Shown here: positions 2,142 through 55,422 of the stretch, piece after piece
Layout of the letters: each line of letters starts with the position of its first letter
Numbering within the stretch: position 1 is the stretch's first letter
Assembly: GCA_944325105.1 (NCBI GenBank)
Contig: CALUYW010000007.1
Coordinates: 1 to 64,000, forward strand
Direction: 5' to 3'
Source of the DNA: Candidatus Gastranaerophilales bacterium
Lineage (GTDB): Bacteria > Cyanobacteriota > Vampirovibrionia > Gastranaerophilales > Gastranaerophilaceae
Length of the DNA stretch: 64,000 nt
Notes under the pieces: model-generated
Seen by the model: only the letters and a program-made list of their open reading frames with translations
Database searches by the model: none
What the model was told of the DNA's origin: nothing
Position numbers and translations under genes: made by a program

Positions 2142-2173
2142 ATTAAAAAATATTTTTGTGTTTGAATAATCTT

Positions 2174-38342: not shown

Positions 38343-39422
38343 CTATCTTCTTATTGATAAAATATTGTTGAGCTTTTCAATTGTTTTAGTATCTTCTTGC
38401 ATGTTATTGTCAAGTTGGCGGGTGATTTTTACCCTTTTATTTCTAAAGAGCATATCGCAAAACGCCTCAAGCCTTGTAACAAAGCCTGCTTCACCTGTGT
38501 GTTCGTCAATTGATAAGTGTAAAAGCGGTTTTTGGAAATTTTTGGCTTTTCTTTTGATATCTTCTATCATAAGTGAATCAGGGCCGCAGCCAAAGGCGGT
38601 AATGGTTATTATACCGTCAATTTTGTCGCTTTTTAGGTAATGACCGGCACAGCCTGTAACTTCAAGCTGGTTTGCCCAGTATGTAGTTGTATCAAGTGCA
38701 CAAATGCCGCTTGTAAGCTCTTCATCTGTCAGCTGGTAAGCGCTATGAACGACTACACCCATATTTTTTAATTTTTTAAATATATCCATACTTGCTTTTT
38801 TGTCGTAGATATTGTAACCGTGCGCTACAAGTGCTACATGGATTACACCTTGAGAGTCTTCGGTTTTTGGGGAAATTACAACCTTACCAGCTTTTGCATT
38901 TTTGAGTGCTTCTTCAAAGCTTAGCCCCTGCTGCATCATTACTCTAAAGTTATTTTGTACAACAAAACCTGCACGCGAGGCTTCTTTTATAAGCTTTTCA
39001 TCAGTTATACCAAAGGGTTTTACCGCTTGTTTTAAAAACTCATACAGCCCAAGATTTTTTTCTGATTTATCAAGCGTTGCTTCAATTATTTCAAAATCAC
39101 CTTTTACCACGTTTCTGATTAAGTCAGGCAAACCTCTGATTTTAGAGCAGTTGTAAATCTTTGGAGCAATAGATTGAATAGAGGGTACAAAAATCTTTTT
39201 TACACCTTTATTAACAAGCTCTACAATGTGGCCTACAAAAACCTTTATAGGCAGGCAAGTTTCTGTTACAACAAGAGCTGAACCCTCTGAGAGAGTCTTT
39301 TTTGTTGTAGGGGAACTTAGAACAATCTCTATCCCTAAATGGTTAAAAAAGCCCCAATAGTAAGGAAAATAATTATAATAAGAAAGCGCACGCGCTATAC
39401 CGATTTTTTTCTCTTCTGTCAT
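38343..39422 (-). CDS. DUF2229 2-hydroxyacyl-CoA dehydratase activase-related protein (COG3581-like)
   Basis: A 359-residue protein with the DUF2229 start IGIARALSYYNYFPYYWGFF, LGIEIVLSSPTTKKTL and VTETCLPIKVFVGHI (conserved Cys). It also has a C-terminal GCGPDSLMIEDI and DEHTGEAGFVTRLEAF, so it may bind an Fe-S cluster. It is the usual partner type of the protein at 2174-3304; in clostridia both are neighbours of a BadF ATPase. Here both stand alone, 35 kb apart. It has a GGAGC site. It converges on DUF1292 with a one-base gap. Confidence 0.78.
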   Translation of the reverse strand: MTEEKKIGIARALSYYNYFPYYWGFFNHLGIEIVLSSPTTKKTLSEGSALVVTETCLPIKVFVGHIVELVNKGVKKIFVPSIQSIAPKIYNCSKIRGLPDLIRNVVKGDFEIIEATLDKSEKNLGLYEFLKQAVKPFGITDEKLIKEASRAGFVVQNNFRVMMQQGLSFEEALKNAKAGKVVISPKTEDSQGVIHVALVAHGYNIYDKKASMDIFKKLKNMGVVVHSAYQLTDEELTSGICALDTTTYWANQLEVTGCAGHYLKSDKIDGIITITAFGCGPDSLMIEDIKRKAKNFQKPLLHLSIDEHTGEAGFVTRLEAFCDMLFRNKRVKITRQLDNNMQEDTKTIEKLNNILSIRR

Positions 39423-39576: not shown

Positions 39577-42444
39577 ATGCAGCCAAATATAAATAACAAT
39601 TACAATCGTTTTATAAACGGTTATTATAGCTCAGTTGTTACTAACGGACAATCACCCTCGGTGAGCGTGAATTATCCGCAAAGTACTACTGTTCCTATTT
39701 ATCAGTCAAATCCTATTAACCCGACGCTTGTAAATCCAAAAATCTCGGGTGGGTATACGTATTTAGGTACAGTTAAAGCTCCTACCGGTGAAGATATTTA
39801 TACCTACATGCTAAAAAGCGGCCAGAGGGTTGCTATTATGCCAAGAGAGGGTACAACGATACTAAAAACTTTTGTTGACTCGGGTTCAATGAATGAAAAT
39901 GATAGAATAAGGGGTATTAGTCATTTTATTGAACATAATTTGTTTAACGGTAGCGAAAAATTACAACCGGGGCAGTTTTTTAAAGACGTTACAAAAATGG
40001 GTGCAAGTACAAACGCCTCAACTGACTATGCTCAGACTGATTATTATATTTCATCAGGCATAATGCAGCCAAAAGATTTTGAGCAAGCTGCAATAATGCA
40101 TGCTGATATGATTTTAAGACCTAAGTTTTATCAAAATATGCTTGAGAAAGAAAAAGGCCCCGTAACATCAGAAATCAGCATGATTAATGATGATGTTACG
40201 ACAAAAGCAGCTAATGAAGTTGTAAGAAATCTTTTTCAAATAAATTCAAGCTCGGACAACCTTGTGGCAGGTTCAATTGAAACGGTAAACAACCTGACCA
40301 GAGGTGATGTTGTTAATTATTGGTCAAATCACTATACACCCGATAGCCTCTACACCGTTGTTGTGGGTGATGTTGATCCGAGTAATGCTATAGAAATTTT
40401 ATCCAGAGAGTTTAATCAGCCTGCTAAAGTTCGCTCAAATTCTGTTACTAAAGAAAAACTTACACCTATTGATAGACCTGTAAGAATGGACTTTAAGTCA
40501 CCAATAACAAACTCCACAAGCGTTATTATGGGCTTTGCAGCTCCTCCTGCAGGAAATTTAAAGGATACCATTGCTCTTGAGGCTCTTGATATCTTGCTTG
40601 AAGGCAATTCAAACTCAAGACTTACAAAAGCCTTGGCACCCCTTAATTCTTACAGCTTTTTGAGTATGCAAAAAGTAGGACTTGTAAAAGATGACCCGCA
40701 AGCGCTTTTTGTGCAGCTAAATACTCCTCCAAATGGTGAACAGAAAGCAATTGATGTGTTTTATGATGCAATTTTAAACATTGTTCAAAATCCGCCAAGT
40801 GATTATGAAATGCAAGCAATAAAAAATAATCTTACAAAAAACCTTGCGATGAACTTTGAAAATGCTGAGGCAATTTGCGAAACAATTGGTTCCGGCTATC
40901 TTGACGGAAATCTTGAGCAAATTTCTCAAATGCAAAATATAATCAACTCGCTCACGCCGTACGACATTGTTCAGGCTGCACAAAAATATGTTGATTTAAA
41001 TAAGGTCTCAATGGCAGTAGTCCACCCATCTTTCGTTAGTAATGAGCAAATAGTGAATAATTACTCTCAAAGCAAATTTGTGACTAAAAACAACAGCTCT
41101 TCCTCTATTTCTTTCGGTTCAAGAAAAATTGATACTACTGACATAGAAGAGTATAGTCTCAATAACAATACCCACCTTGTAATAAACAATTCGGATAAAT
41201 CTGATATTTGTTATTTAAGTTGGCGGTTGAGCGCTATGAGTGCTATGCCAAAAAACCTTGCGGTACCTTATGTACTGACGGAACTTTTAAATGCGGGTAG
41301 CGCTAACAGGACAAAAGAGCAAGCTGTGCTTTCGACTAATGCTAAAGGCATAGAGTATGATTTCGACTCAAATGGTTTTCAAATTTTAGTTAATGCTAAC
41401 TGTATGTCAAAAGACCTTAATGAAACAATTAACCTTTTAAATGAAGTTACGTATTCACCTAATTTTTCTCAAGACGAGTTTGAAAAAGCCAAGGCAAAAA
41501 TAAGAGCTTATTTTGAATCCATTGAAAAAGACGGTTCAAACAATATGTTAGTCGAGTTATATCCAGGCTACTTTGGCTCACCCAAGGAAATTCTTAAGGG
41601 GCTTGATAAAATGACACTAAACGATGTCATTAAACACCATAGCGATATGATAAATAAATCATCTTCAAACTATGTCGTGACTGCTCCTTTTAATAAAAAT
41701 CCCAATATGAAGCAAAATGTGGTAAATCTCTTATCATCTGCTCCTGTTGTGTACAAAGACTTTACGCCAAAGCTTTCAAAAGTGTATAAGCCAAATGATA
41801 AATCAAAAGTAATTGTTGATACGGCTGAGCTAAATCAAGCGCAAATTTATAAGACATATTCTTTTAAAATGTCAGGCAACATAAAAGATGATGTTAAATT
41901 TGAGCTTTTAAATGAAATTCTTGGCGGCTCACCTGCTTCAAGGCTATTCCAAGAATTAAGAGAAAAACAAAAACTTGCATACAGGGTGTCATCTCAAGTC
42001 CAATCTTTCGAAGATACAGGTATTTTGACCATGTTTATTATGACAACAACCGATAATAAGGCTCAAAATGAGATTAGTTATGATAATTTACAAAAATCGC
42101 TTGACGGGTTTGACGAACAAATTCAAAAAATCTTAAATGAGCCCGTGACCGAAGAAGAGCTACAGTCGGCTAAAATGCAGCTAAAGCAGCGAATAGCAAA
42201 ACAAACTGAGTTGCCATCTTCTGAAACTGACTTGCTTTCAATGAATATGACTCTTCCTTATGGAATTAAAAGAATAGATGAGTACGTCAAGGCAATTGAT
42301 ATGATAACCGTGGATGACATTAAGCAAGCTGCAAATCACGTGTTTAAAAATAAGCCCACTGTTTCAATTCTGGCAAGTGCTGATACTGTAGAAAATCAAA
42401 AAGAATATATCTCCTCGCTTGGCGAAGTCGTTCAAGCCGCCTAG
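39577..42444 (+). CDS. M16 family zinc protease, two-repeat
   Basis: A 955-residue pitrilysin-type protein. The first half carries the inverted zinc motif HFIEH (about 113-117) and a downstream Glu in the EKEKGPVTSEISM helix. The second half (about 510-955) repeats the fold without HxxEH but keeps the R/Y-type LREKQKLAYRVSSQ segment. Such enzymes close around unfolded peptides. No signal peptide is seen; the N-terminus (about 1-60) is Asn/Ser/Tyr-rich and disordered. It converges on the AsmA-like gene and shares the four-base CTAG stop. Confidence 0.88.
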   Translation: MQPNINNNYNRFINGYYSSVVTNGQSPSVSVNYPQSTTVPIYQSNPINPTLVNPKISGGYTYLGTVKAPTGEDIYTYMLKSGQRVAIMPREGTTILKTFVDSGSMNENDRIRGISHFIEHNLFNGSEKLQPGQFFKDVTKMGASTNASTDYAQTDYYISSGIMQPKDFEQAAIMHADMILRPKFYQNMLEKEKGPVTSEISMINDDVTTKAANEVVRNLFQINSSSDNLVAGSIETVNNLTRGDVVNYWSNHYTPDSLYTVVVGDVDPSNAIEILSREFNQPAKVRSNSVTKEKLTPIDRPVRMDFKSPITNSTSVIMGFAAPPAGNLKDTIALEALDILLEGNSNSRLTKALAPLNSYSFLSMQKVGLVKDDPQALFVQLNTPPNGEQKAIDVFYDAILNIVQNPPSDYEMQAIKNNLTKNLAMNFENAEAICETIGSGYLDGNLEQISQMQNIINSLTPYDIVQAAQKYVDLNKVSMAVVHPSFVSNEQIVNNYSQSKFVTKNNSSSSISFGSRKIDTTDIEEYSLNNNTHLVINNSDKSDICYLSWRLSAMSAMPKNLAVPYVLTELLNAGSANRTKEQAVLSTNAKGIEYDFDSNGFQILVNANCMSKDLNETINLLNEVTYSPNFSQDEFEKAKAKIRAYFESIEKDGSNNMLVELYPGYFGSPKEILKGLDKMTLNDVIKHHSDMINKSSSNYVVTAPFNKNPNMKQNVVNLLSSAPVVYKDFTPKLSKVYKPNDKSKVIVDTAELNQAQIYKTYSFKMSGNIKDDVKFELLNEILGGSPASRLFQELREKQKLAYRVSSQVQSFEDTGILTMFIMTTTDNKAQNEISYDNLQKSLDGFDEQIQKILNEPVTEEELQSAKMQLKQRIAKQTELPSSETDLLSMNMTLPYGIKRIDEYVKAIDMITVDDIKQAANHVFKNKPTVSILASADTVENQKEYISSLGEVVQAA

Positions 42445-45400
42445 TTTTGAGTTTCTTTATTCGCCCATTTAAAAGACTTAATTGATGTGGTTTTTGATAC
42501 ATTTCCGTTTATTAATACCTGAAAGTCTTTTGATGTAGCATTATAAGATGTAACGCTCAACTGCGGGATTTTTGCAAGGTCATTTTTATTTATGTCTGCA
42601 AAAAGCGGACTTTGCGGTACTACGGATTTTATGGTATCAATAATTGCAATACCTGTCTGAGGAAGTTTATCTACAAGTTTATCAAGCGAGAATGAGCCAA
42701 GAGGACCAAGAACACTCACAACTGTTGAAGATATTCTGCCCAGTACTTTTAAATCGGCATTTTGTGTAAGAAGATTGTACTTGCCTGTAATATATAAGCT
42801 CATATTTGGGCCGGATGATTCAAGGCTTGTGATATTTGCCCAGCCGTTAGCTAATGATATTTTGCCCTCAATTTTCTTAAATTCGCCCGTATTTTTGCTT
42901 GTAACGGCAGATATTGTGTGATTTAGGTTTAAGTTTAACAAACTTTGGGATAGCAAGTTGCCGGCATGTAAGAATCTCTCAAACCTTGCTGCTTCGCCGT
43001 ACTGACCATTTACTATGTCAAATATAACCTGTCCGTTTAAACTTCTCATCTGTTGCTCATAGGTATTGCCTCTAAAGTTTAATTTGGCTATACCGTTAGC
43101 GGTTCCTGACATAATAATTGAACTTCCGCCGACAAAGCAGTTTGCAGCTTTCCTTGCGTTTATGTTTTTGCCTGTGCCGTCAACATTTACTTTTGTATTT
43201 GCAATGTTATAATCAGCGTCAGCAGCGATTTTGCCGTCAGCAAATGTTGCAGCAATATTTGTCAGTTTAACTAAATTATTGTTTAAGGTGAAGTTGAATG
43301 AAATATTTTCTGCGCTTATGTTGCCGGATTTTAATTTTGTAATTTTTCCCATACCTTTTTTAATCGTCAAAGGTACGCTTGGCCCTGCGGTTGTTTGTGT
43401 GTTTGGCATGGACGTCATAAGCTTGATTAAAGCGTCAGAGTCAATGTAAGATGAGCTAAAATCAAGATTGTTTATTGTGGTTGTTTTGGCTAAATTTGAT
43501 GAAATTTCAGCATTTCCTGAAAAATCAGACCCCGCTACCTTTATACCATGTACTCTTGCGTTTATTATTGATTTTTTAAACTCAAGATAAGCGCTTGAGA
43601 TTGTTGTTTTGAACTCTTGCCAGCTTAGGTTTGAAATATCTGCATTGCCTGTTATTTGTGGGTTATACATATTTCCGTTAAGTGCAATATTACATCCTCC
43701 ATCAAGGCTCAATCTACCCATGATAGGCAGGTTGAGAGATAGTTTTTCTTTTGTAACAACATTTATTGGTGATAGGGTTGGAGTTTTTGCATAAATGTTG
43801 TTAATTTTGCCGTTAACTGAGGCTATATTTGCAATTCCTGCTGAGTTAATTAAAAGTGTATCGCCCTTAAGGTTAATATCAGCACTCAGCCTATTTTGCT
43901 GTCCTTTTAAGTTTTTAATCTCTATAATGCTTATGTAGTTTTGCGGATTTGATGTAACATCGGCAAGAATTTTTATATTATCGGGTTTGCCGTTAAGTGT
44001 TACTTCAAAAGGCATTTGCCCTGCACGAGTCACGTATTTTTTATTTTGTGCGGGTATAAAAGTTAAGATTGTTTCGGGGTTGATTTTTCCGTTTAATTTA
44101 GCAGACATATCGGGTTTTGTCATGTAGTCTTTGAGTGAGCCTGAAACTATGGTAGAGCTGCCGTGCAAATTTAACGCAAACGGCTGAATTGTAATATCTT
44201 TTGAATTAGCCTCAAGAGTGCATTTTGCCGCGCTTATGTTAAAAGTTGGGTTTTTAAGGTTAGCACTAAAGTTTTTAGCATCAATATTTGCGATAAAATC
44301 TTTTTTATTTTTTTCATCAATTTTGGCTACAATAGAAGCTTTTGTTAGTGTTATCGGGGCATTGAGGCTTTTAATCAGTAATGACAGGTTGTTAAGCTCA
44401 ATATTTGCAACGGGAATAATATTTTTGAGGTCTCCTTTTACGTCAAGCAGAATATTTACCGTGCCCGCCCTAAAAGAGTAGTCTTTAATGTCTTTTTCTT
44501 TAATGAAGCCAAGTCCTGTTGCGAGTTTTACTATGTCTGATATTTTTAGCGGGTCAGATTTTACTTTTAAATCAAGATTGGTTTTTGTATCTATAGTGCC
44601 TGATAGTGCAAATTTTGAGCCGTTAAGATATGCGCCTGTGTCTTTTATATTTATTTTATTGTCGCTAAAGTCAAGGTATGAGGTGATTTTATCAAGTACT
44701 ACATTTGCAGACGGATATTTAATAACTCCGTCTGTAAGTTCGAGTGTACCTTGAGATTTTACGGTTTTAAAATTGCTTTGCAGGTTAAAGTCGCATTTTA
44801 TAATGCCTGATGCATTTATAAGTGCAAGAGAATTTTTAATATTTAGCATACTAAGTACAGATTGGCTCAGAGTCTTTATGTTTGCTAAATCAAGCTTATC
44901 GGTTTTAATGTCCAGATTAATTGAAGATTTTTTGCCTGACTTATAGGTATTGTTTGTGCTTATGTATTCGTCTTCTGAAATATATATTCTTGATTGTGTT
45001 TTAACGGTATTTTTGTCAAATTTTGTGCGAATTGAGCTTTCGGGCAGCTGCTTGCCGTTTATTTTTATAGTAACTTTATCAATATTGGCGTAGCCCTTGG
45101 CGTTGAAGTTTTCCGAGGGGTCAGAAATTTTTAAATCCACATCAATTTTTGACCTGAGTGAAAATAAATCCATTCCCACAAAGGGGTTAAAATTAAATTT
45201 AAAATCATTTAATGTTTGATTTTGGGTTTCATTATCCTGTGCTATTTGAGGGAGTTTTGTTTGAAAATTTATATTAAAGTCTGCAAAATTTTCATCCAAG
45301 CCTTCTCTTTTAATGTAGCCTGTTGTTTTGATTTTTAGCGGGCCTTTTAGAGTTGAGAGAGAAATCTGCGAGTCGTTTGCCTCAAGAATGTAGTTTTTAG

Positions 45401-45956
45401 AGATGTTTTCATCCCAAAGGCTTAGTTTAATTTTTTGTGCTATTACATTTATATTTCTGAGTTCAAGCGCAAAATTGCTCTTTTTTTCTTCTTCCTTGGG
45501 CTCAGGCAGATTATTTACGGTATTTAAAATGTATTTTTCAAGTGCATAGTTTTTATCTTTTGTAAAAACAAGCTTCATTTGCGCTTCTTTTACAAATATT
45601 TTGTCTAAATTAAGATGCCCAAAGATTAAAGTCGGCAGATTCAGCTCCAGAGAGGGTGACAAAAGGTTTATAAAATCTGTATCATCATCATACTTAAGTG
45701 AAATATTATCAGCTTGAATCTTTATTCCTAAATTCCAGGTTGTTTTAAGCTTTGGATTATCAAGGGCGAGTTTAAAACCGCTTATTTTTTCAACCTGTTC
45801 GTTTATTTGCGGAGTGAAGTTATTTATATTTATTGCATTTGGTAAAATAAACAAAAAAGCCGCATATAGCAGCGCTGCAAAAGAAACAATAATTATGGAG
45901 AATGTTTTTATGTAACCAAACAATTTCGGGTCATTTTTGATTTTTTTAAAAATCAT
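42441..45956 (-). CDS. AsmA/TamB-like large envelope protein
   Basis: A protein of about 1171 residues. A short cytoplasmic N-terminus and one membrane helix (about 18-40) are followed by an AsmA-type start (INNFTPQINEQVEKISGFKL), then about 1000 residues of repeated beta-strands and a C-terminal AsmA_2-like segment (TGEFKKIEGKISL ... NADLKVLGRIS). Relatives (AsmA, TamB, YhdP) form periplasmic lipid-binding grooves that bridge the two membranes. ATG 45956 after GGAGG is the clear start. It follows two exbD genes at once, so it belongs to the ExbB-ExbD transcript. Confidence 0.82.
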   Translation of the reverse strand: MIFKKIKNDPKLFGYIKTFSIIIVSFAALLYAAFLFILPNAININNFTPQINEQVEKISGFKLALDNPKLKTTWNLGIKIQADNISLKYDDDTDFINLLSPSLELNLPTLIFGHLNLDKIFVKEAQMKLVFTKDKNYALEKYILNTVNNLPEPKEEEKKSNFALELRNINVIAQKIKLSLWDENISKNYILEANDSQISLSTLKGPLKIKTTGYIKREGLDENFADFNINFQTKLPQIAQDNETQNQTLNDFKFNFNPFVGMDLFSLRSKIDVDLKISDPSENFNAKGYANIDKVTIKINGKQLPESSIRTKFDKNTVKTQSRIYISEDEYISTNNTYKSGKKSSINLDIKTDKLDLANIKTLSQSVLSMLNIKNSLALINASGIIKCDFNLQSNFKTVKSQGTLELTDGVIKYPSANVVLDKITSYLDFSDNKINIKDTGAYLNGSKFALSGTIDTKTNLDLKVKSDPLKISDIVKLATGLGFIKEKDIKDYSFRAGTVNILLDVKGDLKNIIPVANIELNNLSLLIKSLNAPITLTKASIVAKIDEKNKKDFIANIDAKNFSANLKNPTFNISAAKCTLEANSKDITIQPFALNLHGSSTIVSGSLKDYMTKPDMSAKLNGKINPETILTFIPAQNKKYVTRAGQMPFEVTLNGKPDNIKILADVTSNPQNYISIIEIKNLKGQQNRLSADINLKGDTLLINSAGIANIASVNGKINNIYAKTPTLSPINVVTKEKLSLNLPIMGRLSLDGGCNIALNGNMYNPQITGNADISNLSWQEFKTTISSAYLEFKKSIINARVHGIKVAGSDFSGNAEISSNLAKTTTINNLDFSSSYIDSDALIKLMTSMPNTQTTAGPSVPLTIKKGMGKITKLKSGNISAENISFNFTLNNNLVKLTNIAATFADGKIAADADYNIANTKVNVDGTGKNINARKAANCFVGGSSIIMSGTANGIAKLNFRGNTYEQQMRSLNGQVIFDIVNGQYGEAARFERFLHAGNLLSQSLLNLNLNHTISAVTSKNTGEFKKIEGKISLANGWANITSLESSGPNMSLYITGKYNLLTQNADLKVLGRISSTVVSVLGPLGSFSLDKLVDKLPQTGIAIIDTIKSVVPQSPLFADINKNDLAKIPQLSVTSYNATSKDFQVLINGNVSKTTSIKSFKWANKETQN

Positions 45957-45980
45957 ATTCAATCCTCCAAAATTTGCCAA

Positions 45981-46367
45981 TTATATTTCTGTTATGGATA
46001 TACTTTTAACACCTGCATTTCTTGCGGTATCCATAAGTTTTACAACACAACCGTGCTGGCTGTCACCTTCTGCCTCAATCATAAGACCGTCGCTAAGGGT
46101 TGCTGATTTTTCTTTTATAGTGTTAAACAGGTCGTTTTCAGTAATTTCTTGACCATCTATGTAGTATTTATTGTCTGCAGTCACTGTAACGGTTAGGATT
46201 TTATTATCTTTAGGTGTATCTTGGGTTTTTTCAATATAATCAGGAATTGCAAGGTTTAACCCCTGTTGGTCGAGCATGGGCGCTATAACCATCATAATGA
46301 TTAAAAGCACAAGAAAAATATCCGTAAGCGGTGTTATATTGATTTCATTAAATGTCTGTCTTCTCAT
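45981..46367 (-). CDS. ExbD/TolR-type proton channel subunit (second copy)
   Basis: A 128-residue bitopic protein. It has a short cytoplasmic N-terminus with NEINITPLTDIFLVLLIIMMV, including the membrane Asp that carries protons, and a periplasmic alpha/beta domain (about 40-128). It works with an ExbB/TolQ pentamer. Its start overlaps the stop of the first ExbD gene by one base. The two ExbD copies are nearly identical in the membrane segment but diverged in the periplasm. Confidence 0.9.
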   Translation of the reverse strand: MRRQTFNEINITPLTDIFLVLLIIMMVIAPMLDQQGLNLAIPDYIEKTQDTPKDNKILTVTVTADNKYYIDGQEITENDLFNTIKEKSATLSDGLMIEAEGDSQHGCVVKLMDTARNAGVKSISITEI

Positions 46368-46819
46368 TATTCTTCACCGTTTTCCTTTAATTCTTTCTGT
46401 TCTTTTTTGCTCAGCGGTTCGCCTGCAACTACAAGCTTTTCAAAACCTGCATTTTGAGCACTTCTCATTATTTTCATAATATCGGAACTTTTTGCTTTTT
46501 CGTCAGCTTTTACAACAACCTCTTTTTTATCAAGGTTGGCGATTAATGTCGCAAGGTCACCCTCGAGCTTTTCTTCGTCCGTTCTCTCGCCGTTTAGAAA
46601 CATCTCGCCCTCTTTGGTAAGTGATACGGTGGCATTTTTTTCCTCAATGCTCACGCCCGAGTTTATTTCAGGAATTACAATATTTTTATCAAGTGACTGA
46701 AAGCTTGGTGCAATAACCATCATGATGATTAAAAGCACAAGAAAAATATCTGTTAATGGTGTGATATTTATTTCGTTAAATACCGGTTTTTTACCGTCAG
46801 CATTGAGTTTGATTGCCAT
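46367..46819 (-). CDS. ExbD/TolR-type proton channel subunit (first copy)
   Basis: A 150-residue protein with the same FNEINITPLTDIFLVLLIIM membrane segment as its neighbour, preceded by a longer basic N-terminus (MAIKLNADGKK). The periplasmic domain ends in an acidic tail. Two different ExbD subunits next to one ExbB suggest a mixed channel or two alternative ones. It lies 12 bases after the ExbB gene. Confidence 0.9.
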   Translation of the reverse strand: MAIKLNADGKKPVFNEINITPLTDIFLVLLIIMMVIAPSFQSLDKNIVIPEINSGVSIEEKNATVSLTKEGEMFLNGERTDEEKLEGDLATLIANLDKKEVVVKADEKAKSSDIMKIMRSAQNAGFEKLVVAGEPLSKKEQKELKENGEE

Positions 46820-46831
46820 TTTTACCTCAAA

Positions 46832-47479
46832 TTATAGGGCTATTGTACCTGATTCGTCCACTTTAACTTCTTCATCGGAGTCAATGAAGCTTAAAAATAC
46901 GAGTTTAATTAATTTAAAATCACTTTCGAAGCGAGAAACTACGGTCTGGAAGTAGTTGTACAATACAACCGCAACGATTGCGACGCCAAGACCAAAGGCT
47001 GTAGCAATAAGGGCTGAAGCGATACCTGTTGCAACTGCAGCAGATTGGTTACCTTGAACTGCCAAATCTTGGAAAGTGTACAGGATACGAACAACCGTAC
47101 CGAACAAACCTAAGAACGGAGCTACACCGCCGACTGTTCCAAGGATAGTCAAGCCCTTTTCAAGTTTTCTTGTTGCAAGACTTGATGAGATATCATATGC
47201 TCTTGAGAAACCTGAGCGTTGTTCTGTGTAAATTCTAAGACCTTCATCAACCATTTCACTTATAATACCGCCAAGCTGAACAGAGGCTCTTTGTGCTGCG
47301 CCAATGTTATTTTTGACAAGTGCTTTTTGAAGTGTTTGAATAAATTCGCCGATGTTGCGGTCGTTTTTCTTGTAGTAGCAAAATCTGTTGATTGCAACTG
47401 CGATTGTAAGAATTGAGCAAATGAATATGGGGGTAAGTACCGGCCAATCCATTTTAATTGATTCTAAAAAAAGTTCCAT
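46832..47479 (-). CDS. ExbB/TolQ/MotA-family proton channel protein
   Basis: A 215-residue polytopic protein with three membrane helices (about 15-32, 115-140, 150-175). It has the family LGTVGGVAPFLGLFGTVVRI and GIASALIATAFGLGVAIVAV segments that line the proton path. It drives ExbD and a TonB-like arm with the proton motive force. GAGG precedes the ATG. It follows the TonB-like gene by 24 bases. Confidence 0.93.
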   Translation of the reverse strand: MELFLESIKMDWPVLTPIFICSILTIAVAINRFCYYKKNDRNIGEFIQTLQKALVKNNIGAAQRASVQLGGIISEMVDEGLRIYTEQRSGFSRAYDISSSLATRKLEKGLTILGTVGGVAPFLGLFGTVVRILYTFQDLAVQGNQSAAVATGIASALIATAFGLGVAIVAVVLYNYFQTVVSRFESDFKLIKLVFLSFIDSDEEVKVDESGTIAL

Positions 47480-47503
47480 AGTTATATCCTCATTTTTCTG
47501 TTT

Positions 47504-48685
47504 TTATCTATAACTTGCGCCAAGCACGTTGTAGTCAAACGTGAAGTCTATTTCTATACTGTTTCCTTTATATTCGGGAGGAAGCGGTTTAAAGGGAGCA
47601 GTAAGTTCGACCGCTGCCCTTGCTGCAGCGTCAGAGAGTGGCTGACCTGAGCTTTTTATTGTTTGAATTGAAAGTAGTCTGCCGTCACGTCCTATCTTAA
47701 ACAATAGTACAACGCGCTTACTCTGGTCACCTTTCGGAGGGTTCCAATTTCTTTTAATTCTTGCCTCAAGGTCGCGCATATACGGACCCCAGTTGGGTTG
47801 TTTAATTGCATCAATTCCTGGAGGGCCTGACGGGTTGCCAGGGCCGGGGTTGCCTACGTTGCCACCTGAGTATCCCGAGCCTCTTGAGCCTGATGACCCT
47901 CTTGAGGCCGATGAGCCTGAAGATGAGCCTTTAGATGCTGAAAACTGGGGTGCGGGCATTCCTGAACGACCTGTTCCGCTTGATGAGCCGCCTGAGGCGC
48001 TACTCGAGCCTGATTTAGAACCATACGTGGGCGCAGGGCCAACAGGTGCTGTGCTTTTGGGCACTGCTATAGAAAACGGACTCTTTGGCACTTGTGAAAG
48101 CTTTGGAGCCTGTGCCTTAGGCGGTGTTAAAGATGGTTTAAAACTCGGTTTAAAGCTCGGAGATGGAGCTTTAACAGGCTGCGGTTTGGCGGGAGCCTTC
48201 TGTACAGGCTTTTGTGTTACCTGTTTTGTAACAGTTTTTTGCGGTGCAGGTGCTTGTTTTTTTGGTTGCTGCACTTTTTTGGGTGCGGAAGAAGGGGAAG
48301 CTACGGATTTTTTAGTAGCTTTTGAAGGAGCGCTCGGCATTGATACAACCCTTTTTGGGTCATGTTTCCCGCCTGCCCTTGAATTTTTATCCGAGCGATA
48401 TTTAGTATTTTTGTTTATAGGCATTGCTTCGTTTTGAGTTATTACAAACTCAATATCTCTCGGTTTCATTTGTGGTTTTTGGATTAAATTCAAGCTGATT
48501 GCATAAGCTATAAGCGCCCAGATGATAAAAAACACAAGCGGATGAAGTATAGCAGAAAGTAAAAGAGAATTTCTCATAGATACTTCGTCGCTATGGTCAT
48601 CAAACATATTAGGAAGTGTTTTCATTTCACTATCTAATGTGTCGTCAAAATCGTCGATATTAAATCTGTTTCTAAGTTGTGTCAT
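47504..48685 (-). CDS. TonB/TolA-like energy-transducing protein
   Basis: A 393-residue protein. A 45-residue cytoplasmic acidic region is followed by one membrane helix (about 42-66) and a long Pro/Lys/Ser/Gly-rich periplasmic arm (about 95-285, with SSGSSASRGSSGSRG-type repeats). The C-terminal TonB/TolA-fold domain (about 300-393) has YMRDLEARIKRNWNPP and VVLLFKIGRDGRLLSIQTIK. It should transmit ExbB-ExbD motion to the outer membrane. First gene of the module. Confidence 0.85.
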   Translation of the reverse strand: MTQLRNRFNIDDFDDTLDSEMKTLPNMFDDHSDEVSMRNSLLLSAILHPLVFFIIWALIAYAISLNLIQKPQMKPRDIEFVITQNEAMPINKNTKYRSDKNSRAGGKHDPKRVVSMPSAPSKATKKSVASPSSAPKKVQQPKKQAPAPQKTVTKQVTQKPVQKAPAKPQPVKAPSPSFKPSFKPSLTPPKAQAPKLSQVPKSPFSIAVPKSTAPVGPAPTYGSKSGSSSASGGSSSGTGRSGMPAPQFSASKGSSSGSSASRGSSGSRGSGYSGGNVGNPGPGNPSGPPGIDAIKQPNWGPYMRDLEARIKRNWNPPKGDQSKRVVLLFKIGRDGRLLSIQTIKSSGQPLSDAAARAAVELTAPFKPLPPEYKGNSIEIDFTFDYNVLGASYR

Positions 48686-48763
48686 ATTTTCTCGTTTATT
48701 GTACTTTTGGATTAATTGTCGGATAAAATATTTTAAAATAAATTAGCCGATTTACTACTTTTA

Positions 48764-49468
48764 CTAGTAGCCGTTTGGTGCACTTATTGTGACGGGTTGA
48801 TCAAAGTAAAGCTCAATTGTTGCGTTAGCGGGTATTTCAACATCTTCGCCGGATTGTCTTGCTGCGTTAAGGAGTCCGAGACCGCCGCCTACTGCAGTGC
48901 CGTAAACCGCACCTTTGCCAACTTCACCACCTGATAGCGGGCCCATTACAGTTCCCAATATAGCTCCTCCTGCAGCCCCTATTGCTGCGTTTTTGCCATA
49001 ATCTTTGGCGCTGTCTACTGTGGCACCACCTTTTAAAATACCGCTGCCGTCAGTTGTGGCAACTGTTGCGCTTATTGGAATGTTATAGCCCTGAGGTGTT
49101 CTAATGTTCGTAAAGCGGATTTGAATTTGCCCGTTTCTGTTACCTATTCCTGCTTTTTTGCACTTAACTATCGTGCCGCTTACACTTGAGCCTGCTGGTG
49201 CTATTTTTGTCGAATTATAAATAAAATCTTTATCTAAGGTTGCAAAAACACTCATACCTTCGCTTGAGGTCTGAGAATTTAGTGCTTGTGATAAAACTGC
49301 ACTTGTTTTTGTGCCCATAGGGATGAAGACAACATTACCTTTAAGTGAGTTGTATTGCTTGTTTGAAACATCATAAGAATAGTTTGAAGCAGCGTATGAA
49401 GTGCTAAAACAAAGTATACAAGAAGTAAGTAGTGTAAAGCACACGCCTTTTTTAAATATATTTCCCAT
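48764..49468 (-). CDS. secreted beta-rich protein with glycine zipper (VirB10/TrbI-like C-terminus)
   Basis: A 234-residue exported protein. The signal sequence is MGNIFKKGVCFTLLTSCIL with cleavage after SYA. A beta-rich domain has LDKDFIYNSTKIAPAGSSVSG and IPISATVAT, then a Gly zipper AIGAAGGAILGTVMG (about 165-180) and a C-terminal EIPANATIELYFDQPV. The order recalls the outer-membrane part of VirB10/TrbI-type proteins, but no other secretion gene is near. ATG 49468 is set by AGGAGGA. It is downstream of the 50093 gene on the same strand. Confidence 0.72.
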   Translation of the reverse strand: MGNIFKKGVCFTLLTSCILCFSTSYAASNYSYDVSNKQYNSLKGNVVFIPMGTKTSAVLSQALNSQTSSEGMSVFATLDKDFIYNSTKIAPAGSSVSGTIVKCKKAGIGNRNGQIQIRFTNIRTPQGYNIPISATVATTDGSGILKGGATVDSAKDYGKNAAIGAAGGAILGTVMGPLSGGEVGKGAVYGTAVGGGLGLLNAARQSGEDVEIPANATIELYFDQPVTISAPNGY

Positions 49469-49532
49469 GTCTCCTCCTTTTTTTAATATACAATATAAAT
49501 TTTGATAGTAAAGTTTAATAAATTGTAAAAAG

Positions 49533-50093
49533 CTAAAATCTTTCTTCACTATAGTATGATTTATCTAAAATTATAAACAATTTTTGCCCTGGTGTAACCC
49601 CTCTGTGCTGACCATACTCGTATTCTCCGCTCGGAACCCACTGTGTTGTGCCTGACCAGTGCCATCTCGACTGGTATGGATGCGCCATTTTGTTATACGA
49701 AGCAGGAGGTGCAAGTTCTCCGCCTATTATATCGCTTGTTCCGTTGCTTATTCTGCCTTCAAATTCTTTTGTTGTACCGTCCGGTAGAATAATATGGGTA
49801 ATTTTGAAGCTGATAGCAGCATTAATCCCTTTTACAGGCATTTTTAACATGCTTACGAAACCAACAAAAACTGAGTTTTTGGGTACAATATTGGTCTCAT
49901 TTACCCAAACGTCTGCAGGTGATACAAAATACACCCTGTCACCTTCTTGCAGTGTTTCTGTTGAGAGTACTTTTTTTGCATTAACAAGTACAAAAGCGCC
50001 CTTATCAAGCTTTACCATATTCTGAGCATTAACTGATAAGATTGATATAAATACCGCTAGGGCGGCTATTGCAAAAGCAACTATTCTTTTCAT
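49533..50093 (-). CDS. secreted beta-rich protein, unknown function
   Basis: A 186-residue exported protein with signal peptide MKRIVAFAIAALAVFISILS (cleavage near VNA). A beta domain follows (TLQEGDRVYFVSPADVWVN, NIVPKNSVFVGFVSMLKMP) and a Trp/His/Tyr-rich loop (RWHWSGTTQWVPSGEYEYG). The pattern 'NIVPKNSVFVGFV' parallels 'KIAPAGSSVSGTIV' of the next gene, suggesting distant relatives. A TAATAT box lies seven bases before the ATG, so the start may be leaderless. Confidence 0.7.
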   Translation of the reverse strand: MKRIVAFAIAALAVFISILSVNAQNMVKLDKGAFVLVNAKKVLSTETLQEGDRVYFVSPADVWVNETNIVPKNSVFVGFVSMLKMPVKGINAAISFKITHIILPDGTTKEFEGRISNGTSDIIGGELAPPASYNKMAHPYQSRWHWSGTTQWVPSGEYEYGQHRGVTPGQKLFIILDKSYYSEERF

Positions 50094-50154
50094 AATTATA
50101 ATATTAAGCTATTTTTTCACTTTTGCAAAAAGAAATTAATAAATATGAAGAATT

Positions 50155-50183
50155 TTTACTGTATTAAATTTACAATATATAAT
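50155..50183 (+). promoter_or_regulatory. promoter of the second AsmA/TamB-like gene, leaderless start
   Basis: TTTACT (50155-50160), 17 bases, TATAAT (50178-50183), then seven bases to the ATG at 50191. No ribosome-binding sequence is present. Confidence 0.55.
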
Positions 50184-50190
50184 TATTACC

Positions 50191-53100
50191 ATGGTTTTTT
50201 GGCTTAAAAACAATTTAAAAAAGATTTTAACAACACTTGGGGTTTTTGTAACCCTTATCTTTGTTCTTTATTTATCTTTGGGTTTTCTTATTACCTCTTT
50301 TTTGGATGTTGAAAAAATACAATCATATGCTAAAAAAACTACCGGACTTGATATTATCATTGAAAACCCTGCTATTAAGACCATGCCTGACTTGTCGCTT
50401 GTTATTAAGGCAAATGAACTTAAAGTGGGCATAAAAAGCGAGAATAAAGTTTTCTTTGTTGCAAGCAAACCTAACTTAAGAGCAAGGGTTCTTCCTTTTT
50501 TACTTAAAAAGTTATCTGTAGCGGAGTTTGAGTCTGATAATATCAAAATTAATATATCAAGAGATAAAAATTCTGTTTTTGATTTTGAAAAATATTTACC
50601 AAAAGAGGTAAAAACTCCCCTTAAACTAAGTTTTGCCAATACAAAAGTAAACGTAAACAAGGCCAATGTAGAATTTTTAGATTATAAACAGTCTAAAAAA
50701 ATACTCTTAAACTCTGACAATTTTAGAGTTTTTGAATATTCAGATGGCAAAAAAATAAACTCAAATATTAGTGCTTTACTTAAAATCTGTGACTTAAACA
50801 CAGATGCGTGTAATGTTTCGAATTTATCTTTAAAATCAGACTTAAAACTGCCTTTAATCAAACACATTGATGAGGATAAAACCTACATTGATTTATCTTT
50901 TGGCGACTTTTCTCTATCTTCAATAAGCCCTTATGTAGAGGAATTTTCTCCGGTTAAATTTAAAAAAATTAGCGGCAATGTTTCGCTTGATATAAAGAAG
51001 AACAGTGGTATTTACTTGGCAAATACTAAAACAAAATCTATTGATATTGAATTTCTATATAATGGCAAAAAAAGTAATTTCCTGTTGGAGGGAATTTCAA
51101 ACGGAGTATTTAAGGCTAAATTTGAAGATGACAAAGTACTTATTTCTGATTCATCTTTTGTATCAGATGGCATAAATACCGAGTTTTCAGGCGAGATAAA
51201 AAAATACAAAACAAAAAAACCTGTGCCAAATCTTGATATAAAAATTAATAACAGTGACTTTTTAAAACTTGTGCAACTTATACCGGCAGGGTTTGTCGTC
51301 TATAAAACAGATGTAATTAATGAGCTTATAAAAGCTCGTCCCTACGCCAGAGTTGAGGGAGGGTTAAATATCTCAAAAAACTTTACAACACCTGATGTTG
51401 TAGGAAGTTTAAAGATTTTTGATATTTATCTGTTTAAAAAGCCTGTAGGTTTTGCACCTGCTGTTGCCCTGTGTGATTTTATAGGCGATAAGGTAAAAGT
51501 GGACGTCAGAGTTGATGCTCCAAATTCTCAATATGTAAAAGTCAAAGGTGTATCAGAGCTCTACGGCAGACAATCGGGTGAATATGACATTGTATCTTCT
51601 GAAAATGTAAATCTGGCTTTTGCTCATAAGTATCTTATTCCTGTTCAAAGAGTAATCGGCTTTAAACTTGGCCCACTTCCTTTTATGAAAATTGACGGCA
51701 GCGGCAAAATTCATATTGTTGCAAAAGGAACAATTTATGACGCCGTTGTTGACGGTAAGTTCTTTGGTAAAAACATAAAAGCCTCTTTAGATGGGCTAAA
51801 TGCTCCTTTGTCTGAGGGAAAAATCGAGCTTGATTTTAAAGGCAAAGTAATAAATATTGTAGATACTTCCGCAAAAATCTTTGACGGCATGTTTTTAATT
51901 TCAGGTTTTGCTGATGATTATGGAAATATTAATATAAAATCAGATGTAAAAAATGTTTCCGCTAACAGTCTGCTTGCAGCTGCAAAAATAAGTGAAATTA
52001 TAAAGCCAAGGACAGGTGATTTATCAAAAATAAAAAGCGCAACAGGTAAGTGTGACCTTACTGTTATTTTAAAAGGAAAGGCAAAAAGCCTTGAGGGACT
52101 TGATTTTCTTGATGATATTTTACCTGTGGGTAATATAGTATTTAAAAACGTCGGCGCGATTATTTATCCGAATATTAAAATGTCATCGACTAACGGGCAA
52201 GTTGTTTTTGACAAGGATTATAAAATTAATCTAAAAACTGTTTACAAAAATTCTCCGGTGACGGTTAATGGTACTTTGACGCCTAATAAGTCGGATTTGT
52301 CCGATAAAAATGCAAAGGTCAAAGTTGATATTGTATCTAATGCAGAGAAAATGCGCTATAGTGATATTTTAGAGTTTGTGCGCGAGCAAAATTACTTCGA
52401 CGATAAAAACCTAAGGTTTGCAATAAATAATCTCCCCTTGGGCGCAATTGATTTTATTTTTAATACAAAGATTGCAGCTAAGGGTACAATTCCTGTGCAG
52501 TTTAGCATGAAGGATTTATCCAAGCTTTCTCTTGACGGCTCTTTTGTGCCTCTAAATAGTGAACTTTCAAAAAATATAAGCTTTAAAGGTGGCATATATA
52601 AAATTGAAAAACAAAAGATAAAAGTACAAAATTCAAATATTTCCGTGTTTAACTCAAATATATATTCTAACGGCACGATTGAAAATATATTCTCTAAACC
52701 CCAGGTTAATATTGCCCTTAGAGCACAATCGGTTCCTATGAGTAATTTGGGTGGCATGTCAGGGTATACAAACATTGCTTTCTTTAAGTCTTTATTATCT
52801 GATTTTACGGATTATAAAGGTAGTGTAAATCTGGATGTAAATATTAGAAAAAATGTTCCAAAGGGACATATTTCTTTTAATAATGTTAGTGCGTACAATT
52901 CCAAGCAAGAGCTTTCCTTGGTTCTTAAAAGTGGCTTGATAAAGTTTTCAGGCAATAAACTTTTAATAGATGCGCTTAATTTTTCGTACGGAAATACCCC
53001 GTTGTATTTTAATGCAATTGTTCAGAACTATCTTAGCAAACACCCTGCTTTTAGTGCAACATTTACGACTAATATTGACGAAGTAGCGGCAGATAAGCTT

Positions 53101-54732
53101 ATTAACCCTTATTTAACTTATCCGTTAAAGGTTAAGGGTGAAATAATATTAAAAGGTAAAATAAAAGGCGGATTAAACGACTATACGCTTTTTTCAAATC
53201 TTTTATTACCTAAAGATGCCGATATTTCTTACATGGGGGCTAATCTTGGTGATTTAAACTACGATAGAGAATTTGATGCAAAAATCGATTTTTCAAAAAA
53301 TATTGCAAAAATTAACAGTGCTAAATACCAGAAATATGTTACTTCCCAAAATAACAAACCTACACCTGTTACTGCTCTAAGGGCGGACGGCAGAGTTGTT
53401 TCAACTTCGGGAAAACTGAATTTTGAAAATTTACATGTTGTTACACCAACTGCACTTACAGCAAGGATTTTTAATGTAATATTTAAAAAATCAGTTCTTA
53501 AACAGGGTTTGTTTAGTTGCGATTTGCATCTTAACGGCAATATTTTAATGCCCCATGCAACAGGCGAGATTAACTTTAGAGATATAAACATTCCTCTCTA
53601 TAATACCAAAATCAGTGATATGGATTTTGATATCAAAAAAGATGTTATCCATGCAGTGTTTAGGGGAAAAACTTTTGATTCTGACGTTGATATAACTGCT
53701 GATATTAAAAATAAACAGACTTTTCCCATTGTGTTGAATAACCTTGAAATTAAATCAAAAAAAACAAGTCTGTCAGGTTTGTTTGAGGGAATTTCTCAAA
53801 TTCCCAGAGGTTCATCAGATATTGTTCCTGACCAACCTATTGTATTTAAGCCTCAGGACCTTGTTGTTATAAAGGGTAGTGCTTTTGCAGATGTTATTGA
53901 ATTTAAAAACATAAAAGCGACTGACTTAAAGGCAAGTTTTTCTAATCCCACAGGCTTTGAGTTTAATATTGACAACATAGAGTTTGATATTGCAGGGGGC
54001 AAGGTAGTATCAAAAGGTAATTTTGATGTTGTATCATTGCTTTTTGATATTGATTCCATTGTATATGATTGTGATGCAAATTTACTTACAGAGAGCTTTT
54101 TGGGTCTAAAAAATCAAATGTTTGGCAGAGCAAATGCAAAGATTAATTTGAGCGGTAAGGTTCCTCAGACTCCGGAGGATATAAAATTTGTAAACGGTAG
54201 AGTGGAATTCAGCGTGAATGAGGGTAAAATGCCAAAGCTTGGCTCTTTAGAATACCTTTTAAGAGCAGGAAATCTCATTAAGAGTGGGTTGTTTGGGTTG
54301 ACATTAAATAACCTTATTGAAGTATTAACGCCCTACAAGACGGGTGAATTTTCAACAATTAGGGGTAATTTTAAGCTTGCCAGCGCTAAAATCAATTCGC
54401 TTGAAATATTTTCAAAGGGTAAAAATTTGAGCTTATTTATATACGGTAACTATGACATTATTAATGATGATGCCGACATAGAAATATTAGGCAGATTATC
54501 AAAAAATGTCAGCAATGTTTTAGGCAGATTTGGCAATGCCTCAATTAATTCTTTGTTTAATGTTTTAACGGGTAATAAGATTAAAGAGGGTGCAAAAAAA
54601 CAAATTATTGATAATGTAAATAAAATTCCTTTAATAGAGATATCCGGTGATGACTACAGATTATTTCTTGCCAAGATTAAAGGAAAGCTAAATTCTGATG
54701 ATTATGTCAAGAGCTTTAACTGGTTGAACTAG
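50191..54732 (+). CDS. very large AsmA/TamB-like envelope protein
   Basis: A 1513-residue protein. One membrane helix (about 11-35, GVFVTLIFVLYLSLGFLIT) is followed by an AsmA-like start (IQSYAKKTTGLDIIIENPAI), more than 1300 residues of repeated beta-strands and a C-terminal AsmA_2-like region (TGEFSTIRGNFKL ... DADIEILGRLS) that clearly matches the paralogue at 42441-45956. The length would allow it to span the periplasm as a lipid bridge. The TPR lipoprotein and lgt follow on the same strand. Confidence 0.82.
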   Translation: MVFWLKNNLKKILTTLGVFVTLIFVLYLSLGFLITSFLDVEKIQSYAKKTTGLDIIIENPAIKTMPDLSLVIKANELKVGIKSENKVFFVASKPNLRARVLPFLLKKLSVAEFESDNIKINISRDKNSVFDFEKYLPKEVKTPLKLSFANTKVNVNKANVEFLDYKQSKKILLNSDNFRVFEYSDGKKINSNISALLKICDLNTDACNVSNLSLKSDLKLPLIKHIDEDKTYIDLSFGDFSLSSISPYVEEFSPVKFKKISGNVSLDIKKNSGIYLANTKTKSIDIEFLYNGKKSNFLLEGISNGVFKAKFEDDKVLISDSSFVSDGINTEFSGEIKKYKTKKPVPNLDIKINNSDFLKLVQLIPAGFVVYKTDVINELIKARPYARVEGGLNISKNFTTPDVVGSLKIFDIYLFKKPVGFAPAVALCDFIGDKVKVDVRVDAPNSQYVKVKGVSELYGRQSGEYDIVSSENVNLAFAHKYLIPVQRVIGFKLGPLPFMKIDGSGKIHIVAKGTIYDAVVDGKFFGKNIKASLDGLNAPLSEGKIELDFKGKVINIVDTSAKIFDGMFLISGFADDYGNINIKSDVKNVSANSLLAAAKISEIIKPRTGDLSKIKSATGKCDLTVILKGKAKSLEGLDFLDDILPVGNIVFKNVGAIIYPNIKMSSTNGQVVFDKDYKINLKTVYKNSPVTVNGTLTPNKSDLSDKNAKVKVDIVSNAEKMRYSDILEFVREQNYFDDKNLRFAINNLPLGAIDFIFNTKIAAKGTIPVQFSMKDLSKLSLDGSFVPLNSELSKNISFKGGIYKIEKQKIKVQNSNISVFNSNIYSNGTIENIFSKPQVNIALRAQSVPMSNLGGMSGYTNIAFFKSLLSDFTDYKGSVNLDVNIRKNVPKGHISFNNVSAYNSKQELSLVLKSGLIKFSGNKLLIDALNFSYGNTPLYFNAIVQNYLSKHPAFSATFTTNIDEVAADKLINPYLTYPLKVKGEIILKGKIKGGLNDYTLFSNLLLPKDADISYMGANLGDLNYDREFDAKIDFSKNIAKINSAKYQKYVTSQNNKPTPVTALRADGRVVSTSGKLNFENLHVVTPTALTARIFNVIFKKSVLKQGLFSCDLHLNGNILMPHATGEINFRDINIPLYNTKISDMDFDIKKDVIHAVFRGKTFDSDVDITADIKNKQTFPIVLNNLEIKSKKTSLSGLFEGISQIPRGSSDIVPDQPIVFKPQDLVVIKGSAFADVIEFKNIKATDLKASFSNPTGFEFNIDNIEFDIAGGKVVSKGNFDVVSLLFDIDSIVYDCDANLLTESFLGLKNQMFGRANAKINLSGKVPQTPEDIKFVNGRVEFSVNEGKMPKLGSLEYLLRAGNLIKSGLFGLTLNNLIEVLTPYKTGEFSTIRGNFKLASAKINSLEIFSKGKNLSLFIYGNYDIINDDADIEILGRLSKNVSNVLGRFGNASINSLFNVLTGNKIKEGAKKQIIDNVNKIPLIEISGDDYRLFLAKIKGKLNSDDYVKSFNWLN

Positions 54733-54819: not shown

Positions 54820-55422
54820 ATGAGAAAACTGACATTATTTTTAGCGATTTTATTTGTAAGCGTCCTATGCAGCGCTTGTATAAATAACATTGCAATTCAG
54901 GAATTAAATAATAAAGCTCAAGAATATATGCAAAAAGGTGACTTTCAAAGTGCTATCTCAAGACTTGAGTCAAGCGTTGACCTTGATGGCAGTGTATTTG
55001 AAACAAGGTATAATTTAGGCGTTGCTTACATTAGCGCCCAAGACTTTAAAAAAGCTCAAGAGCAGTTAAAGGAAGCTATTAAAATAAAACCCGATTTTGC
55101 TGATTCTTACTATTCTCTTGCCGTAGCTCAAGAAAGTGAGGCACTAAAGGTACTGGAAGATACTGACGATGAAAATCAGGTTGAGGTTGCGGTTGTTTCC
55201 GATGATGAGTATTCTGATTTAAAAAATATCAGCAAAGAAGATGCACTTTATATGGTAAATCTTTTGGATGAGGCGGTTAATGCTTACAATAAATATCTTG
55301 AGCTAAAACCCCAAACACAAGATAAGCAAGATGTAGAAGCACAAGTGGAATACTTGAAAGAAACTGCATCTAAATACGCTCAAAAATACGAAATTACCGG
55401 CGATACGGAAGAGCAGCAGTAA
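54820..55422 (+). CDS. TPR-repeat lipoprotein
   Basis: A 200-residue lipoprotein with signal peptide and lipobox LCSAC (Cys 19), then about three TPR units (about 28-110: NNKAQEYMQKGDFQSAISRL, TRYNLGVAYISAQDFKKAQE, FADSYYSLAVAQ) and an acidic helical C-terminus. TPRs usually assemble envelope complexes. AAGGA lies before the ATG. Its stop overlaps the lgt ATG (TAATG), so the lipidating enzyme is coupled to one of its own substrates. Confidence 0.82.
   Translation: MRKLTLFLAILFVSVLCSACINNIAIQELNNKAQEYMQKGDFQSAISRLESSVDLDGSVFETRYNLGVAYISAQDFKKAQEQLKEAIKIKPDFADSYYSLAVAQESEALKVLEDTDDENQVEVAVVSDDEYSDLKNISKEDALYMVNLLDEAVNAYNKYLELKPQTQDKQDVEAQVEYLKETASKYAQKYEITGDTEEQQ

Follow-up and report, generated by a model that had tools for sequence, protein, structure and literature searches.

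What a proton-driven motor of the Tol/Ton type acts upon, in a bacterium in whose genome the usual partners of such motors are not recognized, is the question raised by a gene cluster in a 64,000-nucleotide stretch of DNA (the window; positions 1 to 64,000 of the forward strand of contig CALUYW010000007.1, assembly GCA_944325105.1) from a Candidatus Gastranaerophilales bacterium. The known targets of Tol and Ton motors are TolB-Pal or receptors. A previous, sequence-only reading of the window had proposed that the motor energises lipid transport along two giant AsmA/TamB-like proteins encoded next to it (here AsmA1 and AsmA2). The conserved and less expected feature of the locus, which was passed over in that reading, is instead the association of a Tol/Ton-type motor with VirB10-like partners, namely the products of the genes TrbI51 and S52. 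Our preferred explanation, a serious candidate although short of probable, is that the motor acts on these two exported proteins, which resemble the C-terminal domain of VirB10, in place of TolB-Pal or receptors.

The genes for S52, TrbI51, the TolA/TonB-like arm, the TolQ/ExbB-type channel, ExbD/TolR copies 1 and 2 and AsmA1 are co-directional on the minus strand (table 1). The spacings in this order are 64, 78, 24 and 12 base pairs (bp), then an overlap of one base and, between the second ExbD gene and the ATG of AsmA1 at position 45956, 24 bp, with GGAGGA just 5′ of this start. AsmA2 is divergent from S52, with 97 bp between them. The open reading frames (ORFs) and their Pfam and NCBIfam matches bear out the gene list of the sequence-only reading in position and domain content, whereas its ‘divergent pair’ of secreted genes has to be redrawn, given that S52 and TrbI51 both run with the motor and AsmA2 alone is divergent. 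Scans for promoters and terminators scored only 1.6 and 1.9 standard deviations over shuffled sequences and were not used.

Table 1. Features of the motor locus and of its divergent neighbours (window positions; aa, amino acids).
Feature	Position	Strand	Basis or remark
S52, predicted exported protein, first gene of motor run	49533..50093	-	hairpin-less paralogue of TrbI51
TrbI51, predicted exported protein, VirB10 C-terminal-domain-like, 234 aa	48764..49468	-	Pfam TrbI, Foldseek, VIA
TolA/TonB-like arm	47504..48685	-	TonB_2 55 bits, also TonB_C, at C-terminal end
TolQ/ExbB-type proton channel	46832..47479	-	MotA_ExbB 103 bits, tolQ 106 bits
ExbD/TolR copy 1	46367..46819	-	ExbD 87 bits
ExbD/TolR copy 2	45981..46367	-	ExbD 90 bits
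AsmA1, YhdP/AsmA-family, 1171 aa, end of motor run	42441..45956	-	YhdP 57.9 bits, cut-off 46
AsmA2, AsmA/DUF748-like, 1513 aa	50191..54732	+	DUF748 41.3 bits, below cut-off 50
Tetratricopeptide repeat (TPR) protein, lipobox-like signal (by eye), downstream of AsmA2	54820..55422	+	TPR_11 59.5 bits

The names ExbB and ExbD initially given to the motor proteins were right as to family, but the NCBIfam profiles lean towards Tol rather than Ton: the channel scores 106 bits with tolQ versus 80 with exbB, and the TolR-type protein 84 bits with tolR versus 60 with ExbD, each of them below its curated cut-off. The arm is built of a transmembrane (TM) segment with S44 and H48, a linker rich in Ser, Pro, Lys and Gly, and the TonB_2 domain at its C-terminus; searched by sequence against the PDB, it found no match at E <= 0.001. 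In the relevant passages of a study of the Escherichia coli system (PMC12583513), T145 and T178 of TolQ, D23 of TolR and S18 and H22 of TolA are assigned to the proton path and to the docking of TolA. T128 and T160 of the channel align with TolQ residues 145 and 178 and are invariant in 49 sequences. D16 of ExbD/TolR copy 2 is paired with ExbD residue 25 in the PDB alignment and, going by the offset of that match, with TolR residue 23; D24 of copy 1 sits in the same TM motif, and the TM core around the aspartate does not vary among 39 sequences of copy 1 and 41 of copy 2. The histidine of the arm is found in 47/47 sequences and the serine four residues earlier in 42/47, S44 and H48 being equated with the Ser/His pair of TolA by motif rather than by alignment. 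Thus, as judged from sequence, the channel, both TolR/ExbD copies and the arm keep the residues known for proton transfer and arm docking. The genome has two further PF01618 matches (pairs at L078:8878-10658 and L079:9044-10564; G, C and L numbers are our handles for genomes, contigs and loci), both of which adjoin MotB genes and, therefore, the motor of the window is the only one of the Ton/Tol type among the three.

The usual targets of these motors were sought across the genome set. TolB_N (PF04052) is matched in none of 98 genomes, including all 15 of the genus, and in 3 of 14 control genomes, E. coli among them. As for Pal, the only two proteins of the source genome with an OmpA domain (PF00691) are MotB proteins with a MotB_plug, each encoded beside a PF01618 gene; PF00691 is matched in 54 of 58 relatives, the type of protein having been assigned in the source genome alone. 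The TonB-receptor Plug (PF07715) has no match in the source genome, and neither a match nor a first-look candidate in it and 12 other genomes of the genus; of the remaining two, one yielded a candidate that failed and the other a match (G013:C31:1453-1773, L223), the only one in the 15 genomes, which may have been truly acquired or may come from a contaminating contig. Overall, the Plug is matched in 11 of 58 genomes, in 10 over the cut-off. The draft of the source genome (28 contigs, 1.76 Mb) has a completeness of 99.84%, so that an absence could be a gap; the counts across the genus (TolB 0/15, Plug 1/15) agree with absence. Omp85 is found twice, from which barrel assembly in an outer membrane is to be expected.

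The proteins that do accompany the motor are of another kind. TrbI51 scores 30.5 bits with Pfam TrbI, under the cut-off of 35, the same model matching 14 of 33 aligned members of its family at E <= 0.01, and its profile retrieves ComB10 (E 6e-4) and CagY from the PDB. The AlphaFold2 model has a mean pLDDT (predicted local distance difference test) of 61, with values of 75-92 in ten-residue blocks for residues 51-140 and below 50 for residues 149-206. Searched with this model, Foldseek returned outer-membrane cores of type IV secretion systems (T4SS) in all of its top 24 rows (E 1e-7 to 5e-4) and VIA in its top 14 entries (Z 8.8-13.3), the next entry having a Z of 4.2. The descriptions of the matches name VirB10, CagY or ComB10 for several chains, and the F-type and Dot/Icm chains among them we take to be VirB10 counterparts. 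The C-terminal-domain fold of VirB10 is, accordingly to the model, that of TrbI51, over residues 43-233. The stretch of low pLDDT is a Gly-zipper at about residues 160-203 (its GxxxG steps begin at 164-180 and 186-194, and the mean hydropathy over 19 residues reaches 1.4); it separates the beta domain from the final two strands, at the place where VirB10 bears membrane-crossing helices. VirB10 also combines a cytoplasmic N-terminal tail, a TM segment and a Pro-rich periplasmic linker in one chain; TrbI51 opens with a signal-peptide-like segment, followed almost at once by the domain, and in its 234 residues the combination of a VirB10-type cytoplasmic N-terminus, TM segment and Pro-rich stretch was not found. 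S52 is a paralogue of TrbI51 (hhalign 99.1%, E 6e-19) that lacks the Gly-zipper hairpin; its own profile gave a single PDB match, at E 1.5, to an unrelated protein. TrbI-like matches number 5-14 per genome in 98/98 genomes, an expansion of the family; such proteins lie off the motor at G000:C1:51275-51859, C8:31282-31863 and C3:43081-43659 (L213-L215).

The constancy of this association was followed in the motor neighbourhoods of 45 of the 98 genomes, all from outside the genus (33 of the same family or order, 12 of other orders of the class, the Vampirovibrionia or Melainabacteria of the Cyanobacteriota), where a gene was counted as a neighbour if it lay within 3 kb of the motor and, for TrbI51, also on the same strand as TolQ. 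TolQ itself is matched in 97/98 genomes, the source genome included, and in 96 at E <= 3.2e-46. The arm is found beside the motor in all 33 loci of the family and order, two ExbD genes in 32, TrbI51 in 32 and S52 in 23; the sole exception for TrbI51 is L062, a locus that stops 1.5 kb upstream of the arm. Hence the core, i.e. the motor with its predicted exported proteins, is stable across the order. In the 12 loci of the other orders, the arm is present in seven, TrbI51 in four and AsmA in none. A locus of its own kind is L046 (G053:C2:30500-50400), with S52, TrbI51, the arm and TolQ present and no ExbD gene found adjoining.

In the explanation that we prefer, a TolQ pentamer with a TolR/TolR′ pair would turn upon protonation and pull the TolA-like arm, the two unlike TolR-type subunits forming one pair inside the pentamer. 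The C-terminal domain of the arm would engage the VirB10-like proteins TrbI51 and S52, and the Gly-zipper hairpin of TrbI51 would enter the outer membrane at the site of the membrane-crossing helices of VirB10, probably as a ring. By doing so, the motor would tie and shape the outer membrane (lipid balance), a job that Tol-Pal does elsewhere. The action of the arm on TrbI51 and S52, the ring in the outer membrane and the Tol-like job are what we infer. Passages of a 2025 survey of force transducers (PMC12204202) document an unlike pair of tolR-like genes beside tolQ, with vWA transducers and in other phyla, and state that further such systems are still to be discovered; a TonB-like protein of Anabaena is described, in the part of PMC8597729 that deals with it, as affecting outer-membrane integrity, and a TolA-like role is proposed for it. 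In this genome's clade, AsmA1 was added to the operon and AsmA2 adjoins it, so that the cell probably produces the phospholipid bridges along with the motor; that the motor powers them directly is possible.

Several observations weigh against this explanation. In the other orders of the class, 8 of the 12 loci are without TrbI51 within 3 kb, though the family is matched in those genomes (in two of the eight, TrbI51 lies 7-8 kb from the motor), and outside the class TrbI was found beside ExbB in 0/18 loci, in 5 of which the ORF of ExbB was not recovered. The TolA and TonB models fit the arm equally well (39.3 bits for tolA and 39.1 for the TonB family in NCBIfam, a tie), and a Pal without a recognizable OmpA domain is possible. 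Moreover, with 5-14 TrbI-like proteins per genome, TrbI51 need not be specific to the motor and, with a pLDDT of about 30 for its hairpin, membrane insertion is presumed rather than modelled.

The AsmA proteins, on which the sequence-only reading was centred, are both very long, with an N-terminal hydrophobic segment, and they are homologous (hhalign probability 100), as their description as paralogues had implied. Their assignment as AsmA/TamB-like stands as far as YhdP, DUF748 and AsmA are concerned, these being matched, but not for TamB or DUF3971, for which no match is listed. YhdP and AsmA each match 4/8 aligned members of the AsmA1 family at E <= 0.001; the AsmA model matches 2/6 members of the AsmA2 family, and AsmA2 of the window itself passes no curated cut-off. 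The AlphaFold2 model of AsmA1, built from 5 sequences, has a mean pLDDT of 37.7, too low for use in looking for a hydrophobic groove, and its profile finds no relative in the PDB at E <= 1; with the AsmA2 profile, the single match (E 0.07) was an unrelated channel subunit. Matches to the AsmA families occur in 93/98 genomes, and the source genome has a third member, of 942 aa, on another contig.

The search of gene order in relatives that the sequence-only reading had called for confirms that AsmA1 and the motor are linked, and that the link is an old one in a single clade. AsmA1 adjoins the motor in 15/15 genomes of the genus and in four further genera; outside the genus, AsmA1 is linked in G050, G035, G055, G052 and G016, and AsmA2 in G050, G035 and G040. 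Both genes are linked in G247 and G240, of the genus of G035, and AsmA2 only in L187-L190. In the motor-protein tree, which took the 43 of 56 loci that have TolQ, the arm and the second ExbD, the 16 AsmA-linked loci form one clade of 16 with support 1.0. In the AsmA tree, built from proteins longer than 700 aa and without six of the eight L184-L191 loci, AsmA1 of the operon forms one clade (8 sequences, 0.997) and so does AsmA2 (7 sequences, 1.0). Each gene therefore came once and was lost at least once. As to duplicates, L219 comes from a genome already represented by L065, and L191 seems to be the same contig as L082. As gene order goes, the link of AsmA to the motor is real, old and lineage-specific or local; as a general rule the pairing is ruled out, the linked loci being one clade.

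Within the clade, the pattern of retention bears on the strength of the link. In L035-L038, from three linked genera, AsmA1 is kept in 4/4 loci, AsmA2 in 1/4 and the seven other scored neighbours in 0/28; the fifth such locus, L034, keeps all nine scored genes and so says nothing on the link. In L039 and L187-L190, AsmA2, the TPR gene and Lgt are kept in 5/5 and AsmA1 in 0/5. Since AsmA1 is kept where seven other neighbours have gone, AsmA1 and the motor may have a local link, for which the retention pattern may be taken as weak evidence, whereas it gives none for a general link. Elsewhere, any AsmA gene is found within 3 kb of the motor in 6 of the 33 loci of the family and order outside the genus, and in 0/18 loci outside the class AsmA was seen beside ExbB in the stretch read, the ExbB ORF being unrecovered in 5. 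In other genera, among the matches listed, AsmA comes nearest to the motor at about 10 kb (G065) and 19 kb (G021), the rest being farther away or on other contigs. In 12 genomes, and with the 58 strongest of 105 TrbI matches, TrbI lies within 5 kb of 6/31 AsmA genes, four of the six being the motor locus in two genomes of the genus; a wider proximity of TrbI and AsmA was rejected, the remaining 2/27 being at the level of chance (about 1.1 expected for all 31). In G046, two AsmA-family genes at loci that have nothing to do with the motor (L193, L204) have a TrbI-family gene at 1.6 and 2.2 kb, which is not above chance either.

How much of the original proposal, that the motor pulls or opens AsmA1 and AsmA2 so that phospholipid moves against, or faster than, its gradient, survives these results? 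The sequence-only reading had set it against a motor that serves a TonB receptor and whose AsmA neighbour is not conserved in close relatives. The receptor part of this alternative fails, there being no Plug in the source genome. Its AsmA part was borne out, 27/33 loci of the family and order being without AsmA within 3 kb and the AsmA families of those genomes matching at other places. What stands of the proposal is the local link, with AsmA1 directly behind the second ExbD gene, retained throughout the genus and in four more genera, and outlasting its neighbours in L035-L038; what does not stand is a general one, because a gene that joined once and was partly lost does not support a motor that powers AsmA proteins at large, TrbI and AsmA meet off the locus at chance level, and no sign was seen of the motor acting on AsmA. 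Passages of a review (PMC7391070) report that E. coli tol-pal mutants seem impaired in retrograde phospholipid transfer, but hold the role of Tol-Pal in phospholipid traffic to be indirect; the relevant part of PMC11226057 treats anterograde transport in E. coli as a diffusive process that does not depend on energy, and suggests that the AsmA proteins are hydrophobic channels through which diffusion takes place. Energised lipid transport is, on balance, unlikely.

A proton-driven gate in the outer membrane is likewise improbable. The arm would open and close a VirB10-like ring channel of TrbI51 and S52 for import or export, with the AsmA proteins as bystanders, which suits the VirB10 fold of TrbI51 with its Gly-zipper before the last strands, and a genome without a receptor plug as the target of the arm. 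It agrees less well with S52, which has no hairpin, with loci in which no gene for a substrate or transporter was seen to accompany the core, and with a nearly universal motor, which fits housekeeping better than a single substrate. A composite, in which VirB10 is split in two, the proton-driven arm works the VirB10-like ring and, within the AsmA-linked clade, the same machine pulls phospholipid along two YhdP-like bridges, is quite improbable. An ordinary Ton system, with the arm powering a TonB-dependent receptor elsewhere and the neighbours accidental, is largely refuted and very improbable, as TonB_C and TonB_2 at the end of the arm and the Plug matches in some relatives are set against 13 genomes of the genus with neither Plug match nor candidate, and a motor that is present in 97/98 genomes regardless and has VirB10-like genes for company instead.

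Returning to the motor with VirB10-like partners, its resemblance to known systems is partial in each case. As in Tol-Pal, the motor and arm have the Thr pair of the channel, the TM Asp and the Ser/His pair, and are nearly universal in the set; unlike in Tol-Pal, there are two TolR-type genes and VirB10-like neighbours, with TolB in 0/98 genomes and no Pal candidate in the source genome. A motor with a Pro-rich arm and TonB-type C-terminal domain recalls the Ton system, from which the lack of a receptor plug and the VirB10-like companions of the motor genes set it apart. TrbI51 shares its C-terminal domain fold with VirB10, TrbI and ComB10 of T4SS, but starts with a signal-peptide-like segment and adjoins a Tol/Ton motor. 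AsmA1 and AsmA2 are comparable in length and N-terminal segment to the YhdP, TamB and YdbH bridges, AsmA1 also passing the Pfam YhdP cut-off, but they lie, in one clade, beside a Tol/Ton-type motor. In literature searches covering few subscription journals and no preprints, TolQ, TamB and YhdP were not found together, nor were VirB10, TonB, TolA and energy, and no account of a motor with VirB10-like partners was met; in the literature on Melainabacteria and Vampirovibrio, Tol-Pal goes unmentioned among the matches listed. A search on AsmA-like proteins and the proton motive force gave a match that concerns PqiC, and the main text of a paper on YhdP, TamB and YdbH never mentions energy, Tol-Pal or TonB (PMC8593681).

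The interest of the locus lies in that a motor with VirB10-type partners, in genomes without TolB and, in the source genome, without a recognized Pal or a plug, suggests that proton power is directed at a different target in the outer membrane. In a gut relative of the cyanobacteria, the constant neighbours of the motor resemble the ring that a DNA-secretion machine has in the outer membrane. The AsmA genes that joined the motor in one branch hint at, and do not prove, powered lipid traffic, and the AsmA-linked clade, where the motor occurs with both, one or no AsmA gene, is a natural comparison on whether lipid bridges are ever powered.

The TPR protein, as a neighbour of AsmA2, is a candidate member of the system only. 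Elsewhere, the window holds two genes, at 2156-3304 and 38343-39422, which we take to be 2-hydroxyacyl-CoA dehydratase-like (HgdB-like).

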